NCBI RefSeq assembly: GCF_000143085.1
Contig: NC_014315.1
Coordinates: 1,704,001 to 1,768,000, forward strand
Length of the DNA: 64,000 nt
Direction of reading: 5' to 3'
Origin: Nitrosococcus watsonii C-113
GTDB taxonomy: Bacteria > Pseudomonadota > Gammaproteobacteria > Nitrosococcales > Nitrosococcaceae
Of this stretch, positions 1,122-11,768 are shown piece by piece (the first letter of the stretch is position 1; the number at the start of each line of letters is the position of its first letter). The notes under the pieces were generated by a model that was not told the origin of the DNA, did not search any database, and was given only the letters and a program-made list of their open reading frames with translations. A program made the position numbers and the translations under genes.

Positions 1122-1700
1122 TCATGGACTAGATGCGCGGAGAGTCTGGCTCACAATAGGAGCGAATAATTCCCATGCTTGCTCAAATTCCTTGTCAAGC
1201 TGCGCTCTATAGGCATCCAAGTCTTTCCAAAATTCCTCATCACTAGGCGGGATGGATTTAAAGGCTGGCCACCAACGCTCAGAGCCAAAGCCATAACCTT
1301 GAGCACAATGTTGGCAGCTTTCCTGGAGTCTATCGTGGAGTATCCTGCTCCCTTGCAGGTTGGGATCAATCCGAACGCCGACATAAGGTGAACCGGTAGG
1401 AGACAGAAGATCCACGGAGGGCTTATACCATTCCAAACCAATGCTTACCCGGGGCAAAGTCCCTTCAGATTCACCCCATTCCGGTAGAAACCGCAAAATC
1501 CTTGGCCAAGAGTCGTTAAAATTCCGGTAAATCTTCCAGGAATCCGGGGCTGAATTTTGTTGATCTTTGGCAAAATATCCAAGCGTTTGAAGGAATTCAT
1601 TGATAACTTTCCGAGCTTCCGACTCAATCTCGGCCCACTGGCGAATCAGCTTATGGTGGCGGAGAAAAAATTGGATGCGTTCATCTTCGATTCGTTTCAT
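1122..1700 (-). CDS. Hypothetical companion of PD-(D/E)XK nuclease
   Basis: This 192-residue soluble protein has no signal peptide or membrane segment and I do not recognise its family. It opens with a charged helical region (MKRIEDERIQFFLRHHKLI) and has an aromatic-rich middle and end (RWWPAFKSIPPSDEEFWKDL). Its ATG overlaps the TGA of the upstream nuclease gene by four bases (ATGA at 1697-1700), which signals translational coupling and joint function. The pair stands alone between maeB and an ISAs1 element. Such two-gene nuclease plus unknown-partner cassettes often belong to defence or toxin-antitoxin loci, but a role here is inference only. Confidence 0.6.
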   Translation of the reverse strand: MKRIEDERIQFFLRHHKLIRQWAEIESEARKVINEFLQTLGYFAKDQQNSAPDSWKIYRNFNDSWPRILRFLPEWGESEGTLPRVSIGLEWYKPSVDLLSPTGSPYVGVRIDPNLQGSRILHDRLQESCQHCAQGYGFGSERWWPAFKSIPPSDEEFWKDLDAYRAQLDKEFEQAWELFAPIVSQTLRASSP

Positions 1701-2416
1701 AATACCTCTTTTTGAAGAGTGGCTAAGTAGCTACGCGCGGAAACTCTGCCTGGAGCGTCCGGATTACCTTGTGGACTGCTTTCTAGAGCTGCCATTAGCA
1801 ATCGCTGTATTTGGCGGTAACTTATGGGTCTAAAATGCGCCTGAACACAAGCGGGCGCTGATGAGGGCGTCCTACCATTGGAGGTCAAGAAGATAAACCA
1901 GGCATTTTCACGCCCGAATGCTTCGAACAGACGCTGGCATTGGTTATCCCCTTCCGGGGCATCTATCTTGTTCTCTATGATGATTAAACCGCTAGCGGTC
2001 GAAATGACGATATCCGCCCTCGCTTCCACACGGGCCACTTCGGTCTCAATAGAGAGGATATCCTCAGGTGCCAATTTAGTTATGAGCGGGGAGAGCTTCG
2101 CTGCTTGAAGAAATCCCCGGAGAAATTTAATCCCAAGCCCATGAGGCGATAGGGGATCGAGCAACCAGCGTAAAATAGCCGAATGATAAAGCTCTCTCCG
2201 GGCCTTGCCGATGACAGAAAGGATGTCTGCAGGCCCTCTCACCCACCGCCCCAAGTTGATAAGCCTCTTCTGCTCATCTTTTAGCTCAGAAAGGTGCGTT
2301 TCCCACTGAATCACTCTGGCATGAATGCGTTTATGGCGAGCCGCTTTATGCAGATCAAGCACATGGGACCATTCATCCTGGAGTGCTTCAAAAGTTTTTT
2401 CATCAAGGGGGCTCAT
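1697..2416 (-). CDS. PD-(D/E)XK nuclease superfamily protein (PDDEXK_4-like)
   Basis: This 239-residue protein carries a clear PD-(D/E)XK core. ARADIVIS (Asp about 135) is followed by a hydrophobic strand and IIIENKIDAPEG (Glu148, Lys150), then a Gln/Arg-containing helix (DNQCQRL). This is the arrangement of the PDDEXK_4 family, whose members are mostly uncharacterised. The first 70 residues are helical and charged. The next gene overlaps by ATGA, forming a two-gene operon. All core acidic and lysine positions are kept, so it is probably an active metal-dependent DNA-cleaving or DNA-processing enzyme. It could be a restriction or abortive-infection effector; nothing in the sequence decides this. 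Confidence 0.75.
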   Translation of the reverse strand: MSPLDEKTFEALQDEWSHVLDLHKAARHKRIHARVIQWETHLSELKDEQKRLINLGRWVRGPADILSVIGKARRELYHSAILRWLLDPLSPHGLGIKFLRGFLQAAKLSPLITKLAPEDILSIETEVARVEARADIVISTASGLIIIENKIDAPEGDNQCQRLFEAFGRENAWFIFLTSNGRTPSSAPACVQAHFRPISYRQIQRLLMAALESSPQGNPDAPGRVSARSYLATLQKEVL

Positions 2417-2574
2417 TGGGTAAAGAAAAAAATTAAGCGTGCAGTGAATGTTTTCTCTTTTTCGGCGTCAAACGGAATTCCTTCAGAATTTCTTTATTCA
2501 GCGCGGAATTCTTTCAACTGGGACCAGCGAGCACATTTGAACAGAAACCTATGGTTTTGAATTCCCAAGAAGCG

Positions 2575-2880
2575 CAGGGATAACGCAATGAAATTGGTTT
2601 AAAGAAGTTGGCGCATGTAATCGTTGTCCCAGGCTGCTTTTCTGCATCTGCCACCGCCAGCACCGTATGCAATCGCGGCCAGTCGTTCAACGTCTCCAAT
2701 AAGGCGGTCTGCGGGCTGGCAAACACCCGCCCGCGCACTAGTCGTCTATGGCTCCCCAGGCATCAAACACGGGTTTGACGGTGGCGCCTCGCCCAAAGCA
2801 GTGCTGTTCAAAATAACTCTACACGGCCGCATAATCATGGCCATGATTAGCCTTGAGCACGAGCATATTATCGTCAACGG
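2575..2880 (-). mobile_element. Deleted remnant of an ISAs1-family element
   Basis: The stretch starts with a terminal-repeat-like CAGGGATAACGCAATGAAAT at 2575 and continues with sequence nearly identical to the left end of the intact element at 2912. Near 2640 it jumps to sequence matching 3256-3480 of that element, so several hundred bases are missing inside and the other end is lost. The residual peptide (VFASPQTALLETLNDWPRLH) parallels the intact transposase. It is therefore an older, dead copy lying immediately beside the full-length one. Confidence 0.75.
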
Positions 2881-2911
2881 CATCTACGATTTTTCGAGCA
2901 CACGGCGCACC

Positions 2912-4141
2912 CAGGGCTAACGCATGAAATTGGCTTGGAGAAGTTGGCGCATGTAGTCGTTGTCCCAGGCTGCCTTTTTGCGTTTGCCACGCAGACTGGT
3001 TTTGGTGGAGCGGTCTTGACCCACCAGGTTAATGGCGATCTTGCGCAGCAGGGCGAAGTTGCGCACCGCTGTGGGATCGCGAACGCGGCTGTGGTCCTCT
3101 CGGAAGGTGACATCCAGCACCCAATGCACGTTATTCTCAATCGACCAATGCCGACGGATGGTCTGAGCCAGCACCTGTGGGTCACCGATGAAGCTAGACA
3201 GAAAGTAGCGAACCTCAGTTTGTACTTTGCCACTGCCGTTAACCCCTCGGATTGCCTCAACCGCCAGCACGGTATGCAACGCTGGCCAGTCGCTTAGGGT
3301 CTTCAACGAGGCGGCTTGAGGGTCAGCAAACACGCGCCGGCGCACCAGTTGGCCATGGCTCTCATCAAAGGCATCGAAAACGGGTTTAGCTGTGGCACCT
3401 CGCCCAAAACAATGTTGTTCGAAATGCTTCTGCACGGCCGCATAGTCATGGCCATGGTTGGCCTTGAGTACCCATAGATAGTCCGCCTGGCGATCGACAA
3501 TCCGCTGGGCAATGTCCTTCTGGCAGCCCATGGCATCCATCGTCACCAGGGTATTCTCTAGCGCCAGACTCTCCAGCAGTTCGGGAATGGCAGCGGTCTC
3601 GTTGGACTTTTCATCTACACAACGCTGACCAAGCACTACCCCCTGCTCGCTGGCCCAGGCACTTACCAGGTGCAGCGGGGACTGTTCCCGGCCCCGGTCG
3701 AAGGATCGGCGCACCGTCTTACCGTCGATGGCGACCACCTCCCGCTCGCCGGGCGTGGCAACGGTACCGACCCAGGCCGTCAAGCAGGCCTCAAAGGCCT
3801 GCGGGTCGATCAGCATAAACACCCGACGAAACGTATCGTGAGAAGGAATGCCATTGGGGAGGGCGAGAAACTGACGTAGCCAGGACAATTTGCTGCGCCC
3901 ATACAGCGCAATGTCCTCCCAACTCTCGGCGCAGGCGATCACAGCACAGATCGCAAGGACTAGAATATCAATCAGTCGGTGCTCGATCTTCCCTGCGCAG
4001 CGCGGGTCCTCAAGATCAGAAAATTGCTCGATCAGTTGCTCGATCATGGTGAGACCTCTTCACAGAAAAGTAAAAAGGCAGCTTACCTCAGCGGCGATTA
4101 GGCTTCAGATCACGACTCTGTAATTTCATGCGTTAACCCTG
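2912..4141 (-). mobile_element. ISAs1-family insertion sequence, full length
   Basis: The element is bounded by imperfect terminal inverted repeats, CAGGGCTAACGCATGAAAT at 2912 and the complement of CAGGGTTAACGCATGAAAT ending at 4141. It contains one transposase gene. The flanks carry a 9-bp direct repeat, CGGCGCACC, at 2903-2911 and 4143-4151, consistent with the 8-10 bp target duplication of this family. Base 4142 (G) is extra or a mismatch relative to the left flank. Intact gene, ends and target duplication point to a fairly recent insertion. Confidence 0.85.
2917..4047 (-). CDS. ISAs1-family transposase
   Basis: This is a DDE transposase of 376 residues, normal for the family. The N-terminal associated domain (residues 1-90, with DPRCAGKIEHRL and PSHDTFRRVF) precedes the catalytic core. 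The triad is visible as Asp108 in VVAIDGKTVR, Asp171 in LVTMDAMGCQ and Glu304 in RHWSIENNVHW. The gene fills the insertion sequence and its stop codon overlaps the left inverted repeat. No frameshift is seen, so it is probably functional. Confidence 0.92.
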   Translation of the reverse strand: MIEQLIEQFSDLEDPRCAGKIEHRLIDILVLAICAVIACAESWEDIALYGRSKLSWLRQFLALPNGIPSHDTFRRVFMLIDPQAFEACLTAWVGTVATPGEREVVAIDGKTVRRSFDRGREQSPLHLVSAWASEQGVVLGQRCVDEKSNETAAIPELLESLALENTLVTMDAMGCQKDIAQRIVDRQADYLWVLKANHGHDYAAVQKHFEQHCFGRGATAKPVFDAFDESHGQLVRRRVFADPQAASLKTLSDWPALHTVLAVEAIRGVNGSGKVQTEVRYFLSSFIGDPQVLAQTIRRHWSIENNVHWVLDVTFREDHSRVRDPTAVRNFALLRKIAINLVGQDRSTKTSLRGKRKKAAWDNDYMRQLLQANFMR

Positions 4142-5932: not shown

Positions 5933-6033
5933 GGCAGGCCCGCGCGATCAACCGCGCCTGGTCGCCCGAACCAAAATGCGCTATGTGCTCTCATGTTCAC
6001 TCTGAAATCGAATAATTAATAGTGCGTAGCGGG

Positions 6034-6096
6034 TTAGTCAAAGCCGGGATAGTCGGGCGCAACGACATGATAGCCGTCATTCAACGGAGCGGACAT
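6034..6096 (-). pseudogene. Alpha/beta-hydrolase fragment
   Basis: A 20-codon frame reads MSAPLNDGYHVVAPDYPGFD before a stop. The HVVAPDYPGF block is the conserved beta-strand/turn of alpha/beta-hydrolases that precedes the nucleophile elbow. Nothing else of such an enzyme follows, so this is a small remnant. The remaining bases from 5933 to 6403 show no supported gene. Confidence 0.4.
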
Positions 6097-6403
6097 AGAA
6101 CACCTCAACAACACTAAAGTCACAAGTTTATCGCATTATACCGTTGGTTCGATATAACGCGATATCGCAGCAATTTCCGATAGCTTCGACGACTAAAACC
6201 GTTATGTGGTCCACGAGCGACTTAGCGTACGATGTTTCCCGTTTCGTGAACCGATCCCTATACGTATTGAGAGGCATTAAGAGTTTTCCCGGTCTGACTT
6301 ATATATGTTCATTGATCTACGGTCAGATGGTGCTGATTCTAGAGCAACCGGAGGACAAGCAACGGTGGTGACAGCATCTAATTTCTGTGATCGCGGTTCC
6401 TAT

Positions 6404-6946
6404 TTAACCCTCGATATTTCCCGCTGGGTAGGTCACCCTCCCATTTTTATGAACGCACGCGCCTGCGGTCAGCTTCGCCGGTTCAGCCCTATCCCTGCCC
6501 ATTAAATGAATAACGCTCTCACCACGGGCAATGAGATGATCCGCGACAATCCGCCGATGGCAACGCCACCATACGGCTTCCGAGCACATCATCACGCATC
6601 GTCGTGCATGCCCCAGCGCGATTAGCTGATCCAGGCCAGTGCGGAATGAGACACTGAGAGCATAATCGGCATAATTGTGAAAGCTTCGGTTTTCCCAGAA
6701 GTTATTAACAGTCGGCTCTACAGACTTGGCCTTGCCACGCAATCCACCCAGCTCGGCGATGTGTTCGTAGCCAATTTGAAAGGCGGTCAGCGTATTTGGC
6801 AGTATATCCTTATTGTATTGCGGATTAGTTCTCGATTTTGGCACCGAGCGGATGTCGGCCACAACCGTCACCTGGGCTGCTCCCAGCAGATCGAGAAAGG
6901 CATCGAGCGTCCGCGCGGAATGGCCGATCGTGTAGAATGGAAGCAC
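6404..6946 (-). CDS. DUF488 family protein
   Basis: This 180-residue protein shows the DUF488 hallmarks: YTIGHSARTLDAFLDLL at the start, VVADIRSVPKSR (residues about 28-39), and the Cys/Trp/His motif CSEAVWWRCHRRIVADHLI near residue 120. The function of the family is not established; members are often found near stress or defence genes. The start is a GTG at 6946, chosen because the protein then begins exactly at the conserved TIGHS block. It is intact. Directly upstream lies a DUF2945 remnant, a family that I recall as a frequent neighbour of DUF488. Confidence 0.85.
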   Translation of the reverse strand: MLPFYTIGHSARTLDAFLDLLGAAQVTVVADIRSVPKSRTNPQYNKDILPNTLTAFQIGYEHIAELGGLRGKAKSVEPTVNNFWENRSFHNYADYALSVSFRTGLDQLIALGHARRCVMMCSEAVWWRCHRRIVADHLIARGESVIHLMGRDRAEPAKLTAGACVHKNGRVTYPAGNIEG

Positions 6947-6954
6947 CCTCTCAT

Positions 6955-7116
6955 CTATTTGCGTGCCGACTTCGTAAGCGCACTGCCTTTATGTGCTGCG
7001 ATATGATCAGTCTTATCGCTTTTAATTTCATATTGCGGCTCGTCGACGGAAGCGCGATGCGTGTGGCCCTTGTAGTCAAAGTCGCTGGTATGGACCTTCT
7101 GGGCAGTAGATGTTGG
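6955..7116 (-). pseudogene. DUF2945 (HVA1 TUDOR-like) fragment
   Basis: The minus strand encodes KVHTSDFDYKGHTHRASVDE followed by PQYEIKSDKTDHIAAHKGSA and a stop, which is the C-terminal part of the small DUF2945/HVA1 domain. The N-terminal third (with the usual GDxVxWxS block) is missing because an in-frame stop precedes it, so the gene is truncated. The remnant ends about 10 bases before the DUF488 start and overlaps, in antisense, the open frame leading into the reverse-transcriptase-like gene. Confidence 0.6.
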
Positions 7117-7186
7117 TGCTCACGGTGATAATGATACGCTTCCCTTTGATATTGATAATCGCTTCGTAGCCAATAACCAAGAATCC

Positions 7187-8476
7187 TTGGCAGAAATCGC
7201 ATTTAACTTCTTTTGTGAGCTAGAGGGTGGGAAGGCAGGGAAAGCTGCATCAGAAATCAATTCACTACCAATTTTCTCCGAAAGGCTACTTACACCAACT
7301 GGCTCAGCCGGTTTCCGCATTACTACCAAAATCCACCCATTCTGGAATATTTACTTTAATGGTCTTGGCATTGCAATAGCAGAGGCCCATGCGCCTAAGC
7401 GCAGTGATCGTGCGCACTCGTATAGGTTTCTCGAAAAGGGAGAACAATTATTCGATCGGACTGCATCGTGGCGCGCCTACCAAGAAGCCACTATTGCAGA
7501 TCAGGATTTGCAAAACGAAGGCGCTATAGTAGTGCAGACGGATATCTCGAGCTTCTATGAACACGTATATCATCATCGAATAGAAAACTGTGTTGCGGAC
7601 TTGTTTCCTCCAGATTCCACAGTTCCGACCCAAGTTGATCGATTAACGTTAAACAGAACGAAAACAACCATTCTGACGGCTAAGCATTATATGGATTATG
7701 TGCGTGCACAGCTGGGAACGCCCGAAGATGAGACCAGCAAGCTCCGAGAAATCGATCTGCACTTTGACCCTTATTCTAATACAGCAGAGGCTGACTATGA
7801 GGAACTTAGGGAAACTGTGGAAAAGCTTGAAGTCCAAGCGTTACTGAATTTGGAGCTACAGAAAGGACAACCCGATACCTTTTTGGTTGCCCAAATAGGA
7901 AGAACTTTGAAACTCCACACACCACGAACTGCGATACAACTGTGTGAGACCCTTTTAAATCCAAATAATCTGCATGCTTTTCGAGCATCTTGGTCGACGA
8001 TAATGCGAGGAATCACATCCGTGTGCGCCGATATAACCAAATCTGAGGTTTTTGATCGGCTTGACCGATTGCTCGATGCTGTTCCGAGACACTCGCCCCA
8101 CCTCTTGCTTCCCGAAACCAATTGTCTTCATTTCCTAAAGGCCGTCCGTTTCCAACGTACCCAAGCACGGGCTAGCTTTGTTTCTAGCTTATATAATTCA
8201 ACAGCATCCGAGACTGTGAAGCGTGCCTGCATCGACTGCCGGCGACACTGGAAGGATCGGCCAAGCTTTATCCAGCTACGAAACCGATGGAATTTACTTG
8301 GAACAGAGGAGCAACGAATGCTTTGGCTTGCGGCAGCAGAGTTCGGTGAAGAAGGGAAGCATTTTCGTAGTCAGGTTCGACGGAGCCTTGCTAATATGTG
8401 GCGGTTAAGTATAGAGCGAAAGGACAAAACCACTTTTGAATCCATTTACACAAAGTGGGTTGATAATGCCAATTGA
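7187..8476 (+). CDS. Abi/UG-type reverse transcriptase-like protein lacking the YxDD core
   Basis: The N-terminal 150 residues match prokaryotic defence-type reverse transcriptases: FWNIYFNGLGIAIA, SYRFL, and motif A as VQTDISSFYEHVYHHRIEN (Asp119). The sequence then passes from VPTQVDRL (residue 153) directly into TLNRTKTTILT, the block that normally follows the YxDD motif. Motifs B, C and D, roughly 100 residues, are missing without loss of frame. The remaining C-terminal part (about 170-429) is helical, like the alpha-repeat region of Abi/UG enzymes. The annotated start is TTG; the frame is open back to 7076 without an ATG, so the 5' end is uncertain or truncated. Polymerase activity is not expected. 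The next gene overlaps the 3' end. Confidence 0.7.
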   Translation: MAEIAFNFFCELEGGKAGKAASEINSLPIFSERLLTPTGSAGFRITTKIHPFWNIYFNGLGIAIAEAHAPKRSDRAHSYRFLEKGEQLFDRTASWRAYQEATIADQDLQNEGAIVVQTDISSFYEHVYHHRIENCVADLFPPDSTVPTQVDRLTLNRTKTTILTAKHYMDYVRAQLGTPEDETSKLREIDLHFDPYSNTAEADYEELRETVEKLEVQALLNLELQKGQPDTFLVAQIGRTLKLHTPRTAIQLCETLLNPNNLHAFRASWSTIMRGITSVCADITKSEVFDRLDRLLDAVPRHSPHLLLPETNCLHFLKAVRFQRTQARASFVSSLYNSTASETVKRACIDCRRHWKDRPSFIQLRNRWNLLGTEEQRMLWLAAAEFGEEGKHFRSQVRRSLANMWRLSIERKDKTTFESIYTKWVDNAN

Positions 8477-9239
8477 CCGACAACCAGCGAAGGACCCCCG
8501 GACGGTCGCAAGGGATATACCTGGTATCTTTGATACAATGTTTCCCCAATTAACCCCAAGCCTCGTTGCCCATTTCAACAGCAAAATCATATCATTCTCT
8601 GATTGTCAATCAGTTCCCGATGATTTAGTTCAGACCAGTGACCTGAACCGGGCCATGTTGTTTGAAGTTGCATTTGCTAGGGGGGAGCAGATTATTGCTG
8701 GCATTGAAAAAGCAGATTGGAATGCCTGCTTAAATACCGCACTGAAAAGGCAAAGAAAGTATTTCGATGCAAAGCTTCCGGAGACACTGCTAGAGGCCGA
8801 TAAAAAAGTAGCTGAGTGGGTGGCTAGGAATTTAGCCATAATGCTTACATACATACAAGAAAGAGCAAAAACCCGCTCGTTAATTCGATCACCCAAGATA
8901 CCTGGATATCAGTGGATTACATCGGGATATGGAGACTTCTCGCTTGGCACTAGAATTATCGAGGTAAAATGCACAAATAAAAAGTTTTCTGCCTCGGATT
9001 ATCGTCAGATAGTAATGTACTGGTTACTAAGCTATGCATCGTCAATTGAGAGTGATACCCCTGAGTGGACAAACGGAATATTAATTAATCCTCGATTAAA
9101 CTATATCTTTGAGTTTTTCTTCGATGATATGCTTGCCGTGATAGGAGCAGGAAGATCAAAATTAGAGTTATTGGAGTTGTTTTCCTCAATGGTCAGTGAA
9201 CACTCTTTAAGAATGCTTGCATCCCTCAACCAGCAGTAA
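8466..9239 (+). CDS. PD-(D/E)XK (RecB/Cas4-like) nuclease domain protein, RT-associated
   Basis: The protein has 257 residues from the ATG at 8466, which lies 11 bases inside the end of the reverse-transcriptase-like gene. This start is preferred over an upstream TTG. The C-terminal half holds a nuclease core: YGDFSLGTRIIEVKCTNK (Asp157, Glu166, Lys168) followed by SDYRQIVMYWLL, a QxxxY motif (Gln181, Tyr185) as in RecB and Cas4 nucleases. The N-terminal 140 residues are helical and unrecognised. The DNA is clearly AT-rich compared with the surrounding core genes. Overlap with the RT implies a coupled two-gene unit, most likely phage defence; this is inference. Confidence 0.65.
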   Translation: MPIDRQPAKDPRTVARDIPGIFDTMFPQLTPSLVAHFNSKIISFSDCQSVPDDLVQTSDLNRAMLFEVAFARGEQIIAGIEKADWNACLNTALKRQRKYFDAKLPETLLEADKKVAEWVARNLAIMLTYIQERAKTRSLIRSPKIPGYQWITSGYGDFSLGTRIIEVKCTNKKFSASDYRQIVMYWLLSYASSIESDTPEWTNGILINPRLNYIFEFFFDDMLAVIGAGRSKLELLELFSSMVSEHSLRMLASLNQQ

Positions 9240-9340
9240 ATTATGCAGAAGATAGATTGATTTCGACACCCCAGATGCCATGGGCTACCAAAAGGCTATT
9301 ACCCAGAGCATTACCGATAGCAAGGCGGACTAACTACATT

Positions 9341-9552
9341 TTATGCTCGCTCATAACGGTAGGCATCGGGATAATCCTCAACATCGCCCCTTAAAGCATC
9401 CATGTTGATGTTAGTCGCCGGTTTATTGCGCTCAGCCTTGGTTTAACCCAACGTGCAACACTGGCAATCCCAACCAAAACCGAGACGCCACCTCGGCTAT
9501 TGTAAGACCCTCCTTCTCACGAACAGACAGAACTTTACAGCAGAATAAGGCG
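9341..9552 (-). pseudogene. IS630-family transposase N-terminal fragment
   Basis: The minus strand encodes KVLSVREKEGLTIAEVASRF, the helix-turn-helix start typical of IS630-family transposases. After a frameshift it continues as NMDALRGDVEDYPDAYRYER and a stop. The catalytic part is absent. No terminal repeats were located. The remnant separates the RT/nuclease pair from an HsdS fragment. Confidence 0.6.
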
Positions 9553-9655
9553 AGGTTCCAGAGTGCTCACGGGGCGGGATAATGACCGATAGGCCCTTTC
9601 TCACCGCTTTCCATAGCAATCTGGTAAATCCCCTCGCCACGGGCTTCGGCTTCAT

Positions 9656-9964
9656 TCATGCCACCGCCTCGTGCTTGAGGACGGTGTCAGATTTTACGGT
9701 CAGTTCTCCAGTGAAGGCATTGTGCAGAAAGGATTGCTTCAGTTCAGCAAGGGCGGTGAGGCTTTGTTGGTAAACTTCAGATAAATCCTCACACTCATCC
9801 GAAATAAAATCAATTTTTTCTACCAAGCGCTTTTGAGTTTCTAGTGATGGTAATGAAAGCGTGAGCGCCTTCGAATCAGGCACGCGCATATGCTGAACTG
9901 TGGTGCCTGAAGCCAAATTTCTTATTTGGCTCTGAAAATCATTTGATCGGAGGGCATAAAGCAA
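9656..9964 (-). pseudogene. hsdS: Type I restriction specificity subunit (HsdS) C-terminal fragment
   Basis: The 102 visible residues correspond to the end of an HsdS target-recognition domain plus the distal conserved coiled-coil helix: QIRNLASGTTVQHMRVPDSK, LPSLETQKRLVEKIDFI, SLTALAELKQSFLHNAFTGE. A working HsdS has about 400 residues with two recognition domains, so this is a truncated remnant. No hsdM or hsdR is visible in the window. The upstream side is cut off near 9965. Confidence 0.75.
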
Positions 9965-10256
9965 AAATCAGCTTAACATCTTTCAATTTGGGCGGCCAGA
10001 ATGGCCTTAGCTTGCTCCACATCGGTGTTGGGATGCTCAAAGTCACAGAACACATGGCCACTACCGCACGCAATTCTGAAGCTTAGCCTGCAGAGGTGAG
10101 ATGCTTTTTTGTTTTAACTAAACCGAGTAATTTTCTGACTCTTTAGATGTTCACTAGATGTTGCACTTCGTGTAGCCTTCTTCACCTAGGAGCAAACTCA
10201 AAAACATATTTTAGCGCCATGAATATCCCCTTTAATTCCGCCCCTATCTCTACCCC
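9965..10256. other. Intergenic remnant DNA upstream of putP
   Basis: On the minus strand, bases about 9970-10080 can be read as a short peptide containing CDFEHPNTDVEQAKAILAAQ, which looks like a protein fragment but which I cannot assign. The right part (10090-10256) is AT-rich and likely carries the putP promoter. It includes a 13-codon ATG frame (10219-10260) ending just at the putP TTG. Confidence 0.35.
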
Positions 10257-11768
10257 TTGAGGTTAACTTTCCAAGCCGTGATGATAGCCACTTTTATCAT
10301 TTATCTCGCCGCCATGTTGCTCCTTGGTCTGCTGGCCTATGTCCGGACCCGGGACTTGTCTGACTATATCCTTGGGGGCCGCAAGCTCGGAAGCTGGACC
10401 ACTGCCTTGAGCGCAGGAGCTTCTGACATGAGTGGCTGGCTCCTTTTGGGATTGCCTGGTTACGCTTATCTTCATGGCTTGGAAGCCGGCTGGATTGCCC
10501 TCGGTTTATGGTTGGGCACCTATGGTAACTGGCGCCTAGTGGCCGCCCGATTGCGGGCCTATTCCACAGCTGCAGGGGATTCACTCACCTTGCCGGAATT
10601 TTTGGCTCAGCGCTTTGATGACCATCGTCATCTGCTACGCTGCGTTGCGGCAGCTTTTATCCTGATTTTTTTCTTGTTTTATACCAGCGCGGGCTTGGTA
10701 GCAGGAGGGAAACTGTTCAATGCCGTCTTCGGCCTACCTTACACATGGGCCGTGGCCACCGGTACCCTAGCCATCATGAGCTATACTTTCATTGGGGGAT
10801 TTCTCGCCGTCTCCTGGACTGATGTGGTACAGGGCCTGTTGATGCTGCTCGCCCTGCTCGCTGTTCCCATGGTTGCCATTCACCATGGGGGGGGCTGGCA
10901 GGCCACCTTGGCCGGCATCGATGCTGAACGGCTCCACCTGTTCGTAACGACGACCGGTGAACCCCTGGGGACTATCGCTATTCTCTCCCTACTGGGATGG
11001 GGGTTAGGGTATTTCGGCCAACCTCATATTCAGGCTCGTTTCATGGCCATTCATTCCCTTAAAGCCGTGCCCCAGGCGCGGCGAATCGCCATGGGTTGGG
11101 TGACCCTAACCTTAAGCGGCGCTCTGCTGGTAGGAATCACGGGAGCCTCCTTTCTAAGCCCACCCCTTTCCGTGGCTGACAGCGAAAAAGTATTCATTGA
11201 AATGGTCGGTGTCCTCTTTCATCCTTTGCCTGCCGGAATTTTATTAGCCGCTATCCTGGCGGCTATCATGAGTACCACCGATTCCCAGCTACTGGTTTGC
11301 TCGGCAGTCTTTACCGATGACTTTTACAAAGCCCTCCTGCGCCCTCAGGCAAGCGCTCGGGAACTAGTTTATGTGGGCCGAGCTACCGTCGTCGTCATTG
11401 CCTTCCTGGCATTATGGTTAGCCTTCGATCCGGACAGTCACGTTTTGGAGTTAGTAGCCTATGCCTGGGCCGGATTTGGCGCTGCCTTTGGACCTACCCT
11501 CCTGATAGCCCTTTACTGGAAACGAATGACGCGACAGGGCGCACTGGCCGGAATTATCGTAGGAGGCATAACGATTATAGTGTGGAAGCAACTGGAAGGG
11601 GGAATTTTTGACCTTTACGAACTGGTGCCCGGCTTTATTTTCTCAGCTATCGCCATTGTCGGCGTTAGTTGGCTAACTACCGCTCCTGGAATCAAGATCG
11701 AGCGGCAATTTAACGCGATTGCTAACAATACCACGCCTTTTAATACAAACAAAGATCGCCCAATCTAA
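10257..11768 (+). CDS. putP: Sodium/solute symporter, PutP-like (sodium/proline)
   Basis: This inner-membrane sodium:solute symporter has 503 residues and about 13 hydrophobic segments. Typical PutP blocks are present: YILGGRKLGSWTTALSAGAS with ASDMSGWLLLGLPG (residues about 37-70), SLTLPEFLAQRF, and AAILAAIMSTTDSQLL near residue 340. PutP imports proline, a nutrient and osmoprotectant, which suits the ectoine and proP genes nearby. The start is uncertain: TTG 10257 gives the full frame, GTG 10278 or ATG 10281 would begin directly on the first membrane helix as in known PutP. A GAGG at 10258 is too far from ATG to be convincing. Confidence 0.85.
   Translation: MRLTFQAVMIATFIIYLAAMLLLGLLAYVRTRDLSDYILGGRKLGSWTTALSAGASDMSGWLLLGLPGYAYLHGLEAGWIALGLWLGTYGNWRLVAARLRAYSTAAGDSLTLPEFLAQRFDDHRHLLRCVAAAFILIFFLFYTSAGLVAGGKLFNAVFGLPYTWAVATGTLAIMSYTFIGGFLAVSWTDVVQGLLMLLALLAVPMVAIHHGGGWQATLAGIDAERLHLFVTTTGEPLGTIAILSLLGWGLGYFGQPHIQARFMAIHSLKAVPQARRIAMGWVTLTLSGALLVGITGASFLSPPLSVADSEKVFIEMVGVLFHPLPAGILLAAILAAIMSTTDSQLLVCSAVFTDDFYKALLRPQASARELVYVGRATVVVIAFLALWLAFDPDSHVLELVAYAWAGFGAAFGPTLLIALYWKRMTRQGALAGIIVGGITIIVWKQLEGGIFDLYELVPGFIFSAIAIVGVSWLTTAPGIKIERQFNAIANNTTPFNTNKDRPI

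Follow-up and report, generated by a model that had tools for sequence, protein, structure and literature searches.

The pairing of a reverse transcriptase (RT) with a PD-(D/E)XK nuclease has already been described, under the name DRT8, a system defined by Mestre et al. 2022. A passage in PMC12596737 states that DRT8 contains a PD-(D/E)XK domain, while a passage in PMC10952713 places a Cap17 (SLOG/PNP) effector under the name 'DRT8', which is at odds with PD-(D/E)XK as the sole partner. According to excerpts of two reviews (PMC13213688 and PMC13314766), protection against phages has been reported for DRT8 and its mechanism is not established.

The locus considered here is located in a stretch of 64,000 nucleotides from Nitrosococcus watsonii C-113, the whole of which is referred to as the window. 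It comprises an RT gene of the UG/Abi type and an overlapping PD-(D/E)XK nuclease gene, and is very probably a DRT8 operon that was acquired and subsequently inactivated. The RT gene lost its 5' end, start codon included, in a rearrangement; an in-frame deletion removed 74 codons including those of the YxDD motif, and the nuclease frame remains whole. The two lesions of the RT gene are independent of each other. The features concerned are listed below, with G060 denoting another genome of the same genus.

6955-7102, minus strand: remnant of an Hva1_TUDOR (PF11160) gene, N-terminal part lost at the left breakpoint; G060 has the gene whole, at 72 aa
7102/7103, no strand: left breakpoint, where synteny with G060 (94%) stops and Drt8 homology starts; the RT gene is cut some 12 codons in, the Hva1_TUDOR gene within its 5' part
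7076-8476, plus strand: open frame of the Drt8 RT remnant; Drt8 homology from about 7103, with 7076-7102 coding for residues from other DNA
7538-7564, plus strand: RT motif A region TDISSFYEH, kept
7642-7646, plus strand: join left by an in-frame deletion of 74 codons (222 nt), the YVDD block among them; the Leu codon 7643-7645 fits either side
7643-8476, plus strand: RT part past the deletion, with the LTLNRTKT block and a C-terminal helical domain; the sole large part predicted with fair confidence
8466-9239, plus strand: intact PD-(D/E)XK nuclease gene (RTasPDDEXK), 257 aa, with D157, E166-V-K168 and Q181xxxY185 kept
9610-10600, no strand: right flank, where synteny with G060 (94%) is back; about 508 bp in G060 replace window positions 7103-9609

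The assignment to DRT8 is derived from the profile matches of the two proteins. The best PADLOC profile of the RT remnant is Drt8, with an E-value of 3.7e-108 as against 1.2e-07 for the runner-up profile, and that of the nuclease is RTasPDDEXK, at 1.8e-74; judged as sequence matches, both appear well beyond chance. Searches of Pfam with both proteins up to an E-value of 1 and of Rfam at gathering scores over 6000-10600 returned nothing, and in NCBIfam the RT matches Drt5 alone, far under the cut-off (19.3 of 550 bits). The nuclease likewise finds nothing in the PDB in a sequence search up to an E-value of 1. The first-pass annotation had suggested either the decay of an Abi/UG-type system with survival of its nuclease or a new two-gene system with a non-polymerising RT as its scaffold. 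It is the former that finds support, in the profile matches, in the loss of the start codon and in the retention of Y/FxDD in 20 of 21 other loci, and the family can now be given as DRT8.

The RT remnant consists of 466 codons read through with neither a stop nor a frameshift, and the description that it retains motif A (Asp119 in TDISSFYEH, a numbering counted from TTG 7187) and the TLNRTKT block was borne out in this frame. Alignment with relatives showed that the YxDD motif is absent between motif A and LTLNRTKT, and comparison with full-length proteins gave an exact count of 74 codons (222 nt) missing in frame, the offset in an alignment of 10 sequences standing at 12 up to Q177 of the remnant and at 86 from L183. 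The segment lost with YVDD is what we take to be motifs B-D by the usual naming. The join proposed earlier, near 7643-7650, is thus only a few bases from that established here, and the absence of the YxDD segment without loss of frame was likewise correctly recognized. The proteins of the nearest relatives are about 65% identical to those of the window, and the GC contents of the RT gene (46%) and the nuclease gene (42%) are both below the window average of 52%.

Relocation of the missing core to another site in the genome was considered and ruled out. With the 74-aa core of the intact relative L004 as query, the missing piece was not found elsewhere in the genome at an E-value of up to 10, the single match lying at 25% identity inside a Drt9-like RT. 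This second RT, at G000 C1:3153600-3156200 (L034), has Drt9 as its best PADLOC profile (1.4e-95) and is apparently split into two overlapping frames of 117 and 349 aa near a DDE_3 transposase fragment, so that the other DRT of this genome may be broken too.

The second lesion, absent from the first-pass annotation, is the loss of the start codon and of the first 12 or so codons at 7102/7103. In relatives, the RT begins with an ATG about 12 codons upstream of the point at which homology in the window begins (about 7103), and because this native start and the codons following it are missing, the first in-frame ATG, GTG or TTG of the remnant is TTG 7187, which lies within the conserved protein. 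Over 6082-7102 and over 9610-10600, the identity between the window and the genome G060 is 94%, and since the synteny breaks at 7102/7103 and the TUDOR gene of G060 is whole, the left edge can be recognized as a rearrangement that cut both the RT and the TUDOR genes; the TUDOR remnant matches its profile from position 19 on. Neither an RT match nor a DNA match to 7103-9239 was found in three other genomes of the genus, G060 among them.

Several further genes in the vicinity were recorded. A DUF488 gene with a full domain (6404-6946, minus strand) corresponds to a syntenic stretch of G060 that contains short frames only, and the gene may be broken in that genome. A gene matching PDDEXK_4 and the PADLOC candidate PDC-S26 (1122-2416, minus strand) covers approximately the first half of the profile and is followed by a 192-aa frame with no match, so that it is possibly a split gene. 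A C-terminal fragment of a type I restriction specificity subunit is located at 9656-9964 (minus strand), its best PADLOC match covering profile positions 315-397 of 398, and a DDE transposase (DDE_Tnp_1 with DDE_Tnp_1_assoc; 2917-4047, minus strand) lies close to the defence remnants.

A survey of relatives brought together 21 other loci, comprising 12 from genome contigs (L002-L013, obtained by a pattern-based scan), four from plasmids (L017-L020) and five (L049-L053) from a nuclease profile search of two orders (399 and 397 genomes). L048 was left out as the same stretch as L011, and two weak nuclease matches, L054 and L055, were set aside too, their retrieved stretches containing no Drt8 RT. 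The Y/FxDD motif is kept in all 12 genome loci, in three of the four plasmid loci and in all five of L049-L053, among which L053 lies near a contig edge, its alignment beginning at residue 69; the 74-codon deletion of the window recurs in none of the 21. The single locus without YxDD is L017, whose RT is truncated by the presence of an IS3 element at its edge. The pattern that had been associated earlier with a simple pseudogene, an intact YxDD in every homologue and a deletion shared with no other genome, is therefore what was observed, save that L017 lost its YxDD, in its case at the IS3 element and not by the deletion seen in the window.

An RT search of 63 genomes of the order matched the window's own genome alone, and that of 369 genomes of the class yielded three genomes with a match, namely the window's own and two with distant RTs of 28-30% identity; the nuclease search of 398 genomes of the phylum again returned only the window's own. 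No relative was found in phages or in viral contigs, where three pattern matches proved not to be relatives, and a phage or prophage origin was rejected on this ground. No DNA match was found in E. coli.

Damage to DRT8 loci was observed in several other cases. L017, the Comamonas testosteroni plasmid pNFYY023-1 (NZ_MT011984), carries a Drt8 RT that starts at about residue 249 of L004, is annotated as a 300-aa protein and is followed by a whole nuclease gene; its remnant lies upstream of annotated TnsA-like endonuclease and transposase genes. In L010, an insertion of about 2.5 kb (1420-3885) with an IS1595-type transposase interrupts the RT near residue 370, and the nuclease frame is whole. 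L017 and L010 are independent instances of RT loss or interruption beside a whole nuclease frame. In L012 the frame is broken in the RT gene and in the nuclease gene alike, and L013 shows the opposite damage, its nuclease gene (from 7598) containing an in-frame stop and its RT frame being unbroken.

The age of the damage in the window was approached through branch lengths and changes at otherwise invariant sites, which were used in place of dN/dS on a fixed tree of 13 sequences, a count that omits L010, L012, L013 and L017, in which one or both genes are broken, as well as L049-L053. The ratio dN/dS was set aside because synonymous sites should be saturated at the distance of these relatives. 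The terminal branches of RT and nuclease measure 0.266 and 0.319 in the window, 0.271 and 0.349 in L004, and 0.273 and 0.320 in L009, the RT branch of the window being no longer than those of L004 and L009, its two nearest intact relatives. RT sites changed in one sequence and invariant in the rest number 8 of 123 in the window, 4 of 119 in L004 and 1 of 116 in L009, and, among further RT-intact loci, 7 of 122 in L019, 9 of 124 in L008 and 16 of 131 in L003; since the value of the window lies within the range of RT-intact loci, these counts do not decide between decay and retention. The corresponding nuclease counts are 1 of 50 in the window, 0 of 49 in L004, 1 of 50 in L009, 1 of 50 in L019, 2 of 51 in L008 and 13 of 62 in L003. 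The remnant bears no clear mark of long neutral drift, which suggests that DRT8 was probably inactivated recently in the window.

Some points can be raised against inactivation. The remaining RT frame contains no stop or frameshift and its branch is not long, which also fits continued selection, and damage of the reverse kind exists, as in L013. An in-frame deletion arises by chance in one case out of three, however, and the open frame is therefore weak evidence for selection.

The nuclease gene itself begins at ATG 8466 and overlaps the RT stop codon (8474-8476) by 11 bases, the extent of overlap given in the first-pass annotation. Its assignment to the D...ExK...QxxxY nucleases was also confirmed, and each of the 15 rows in the nuclease alignment keeps D157, E166-V-K168 and Q181xxxY185. 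To judge from its sequence, the gene is whole and its product could be active if expressed. In a first alternative, the nuclease alone has been kept functional, as an orphan or co-opted restriction-type enzyme, and the RT remnant is a mere leader. The whole frame, the retained motif residues and the single change at otherwise invariant sites would agree with such a role, as would the intact nuclease frames that outlast the RT in L017 and L010; yet a recent inactivation would leave an intact-looking nuclease anyway, and the operon has lost its native 5' end, so that the promoter has probably gone with it. Additionally, each of the nine strong nuclease matches (E-values below 1e-50) of the two order-wide searches adjoins a Drt8 RT stretch, and no free-standing close relative of the nuclease was found there. 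This alternative is considered very unlikely.

Structure models of the window remnant and of L004, computed with the same ten sequences as the alignment, bear on the fate of the RT fold. The model of L004 has a mean pLDDT of 77.0 and gives 129 PDB matches at E-values of up to 0.001, with DRT6, DRT4, UG15 and AbiP2 at the top and AbiA, DRT9 and AbiK also present, the TM-scores of these being below 0.5. The model of the remnant has a mean pLDDT of 60.9 and no PDB match at the same threshold. Values per block of ten residues are 30-58 over residues 1-220, which form the N-terminal and palm part, and mostly 59-87 in the helical C-terminal part, with 46-54 in the last 30 residues; the deleted segment covers the strands around YVDD in L004 (233-237 and 240-245). 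The RT fold of the remnant is thus predicted to be lost, and its helical domain may survive. Confidence in both predictions is moderate, given the shallow alignment and the poor matches that any poor model yields.

The second alternative, and the other reading offered by the first-pass annotation, is a derived two-gene system in which the C-terminal helical domain of the RT, kept for this purpose, serves the nuclease as a scaffold or restraint, with no polymerisation. What mainly keeps it alive is the remnant's evolution, not accelerated relative to the nearest relatives, since the same rates would be expected of a retained remnant. The intact nuclease residues and the mostly 59-87 pLDDT of the helical domain are compatible with it, and the Comamonas plasmid also combines a C-terminal RT part alone (300 aa) with a whole nuclease gene, but the latter is a truncation at an IS3 element. 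Other observations oppose it: the remnant has no proper start codon, TTG 7187 being internal; its N-terminal and palm part is poorly predicted; Y/FxDD prevails in the other loci; and the three other genomes of the genus have no match to the RT or to the DNA of 7103-9239. It was rejected as a main reading on two grounds, a deletion confined to the window among the loci examined and a missing start codon, and the pairing that it presented as new is the one known as DRT8; we regard it as very unlikely. The broader proposition that the helical domain of Drt8 RTs can be kept without the polymerase as a nuclease partner or restraint, forming a minimal non-polymerising defence pair that arose at least twice (in the window and on the Comamonas plasmid), is highly improbable.

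That the deletion is an assembly or sequencing error is barely credible: it was seen in a single genome, but the assembly of this genome, in 3 contigs with a completeness of 100, is nearly complete, the removed piece is absent from the rest of it, and a second lesion of the gene, independent of the first, lies at a junction whose flanks show real synteny.

Under acquisition followed by inactivation, a DRT8 operon would first have been acquired, and its RT would then have been inactivated by the 5' rearrangement and the 74-codon deletion. In intact relatives, the RT would make DNA during infection and would thereby control the nuclease, the presumed effector. In the window copy, no DNA could be made and the system would be off, leaving the nuclease as a probable leftover whose decay has not yet begun to show. 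The window, L017 and L010 are natural cases of a nuclease frame outlasting a whole RT, and they would bear on the question of whether a nuclease without its RT does harm.

In comparison with known systems, the solved structures of other DRT and Abi RTs (DRT6, DRT4, UG15, AbiP2, AbiA and AbiK) match the model of the intact relative over most of its length, whereas the window remnant matches no RT structure; we know of no PD-(D/E)XK partner for any of these six. The IS3-truncated DRT8 of L017 resembles the window in that the RT core is gone and the C-terminal part and nuclease gene are retained, but differs in having lost the whole N-terminal half at the IS3 element, the window having suffered an internal deletion. 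The closest likeness is to DRT8 itself (PADLOC PDLC03783 and PDLC03797), whose profiles are the best matches of both window proteins and whose gene order is the same, the nuclease gene overlapping the RT gene or following it immediately, as it does in full-length relatives. The window RT departs from DRT8 in the missing start codon, the missing 12 or so N-terminal codons and the 74 missing codons with YxDD. A Drt8-like RT and an adjoining RTasPDDEXK nuclease are thus present, and a complete palm with YxDD and a complete N-terminus are absent, making the locus a member of DRT8 by ancestry and not a working one, whose main value lies in its clean annotation.
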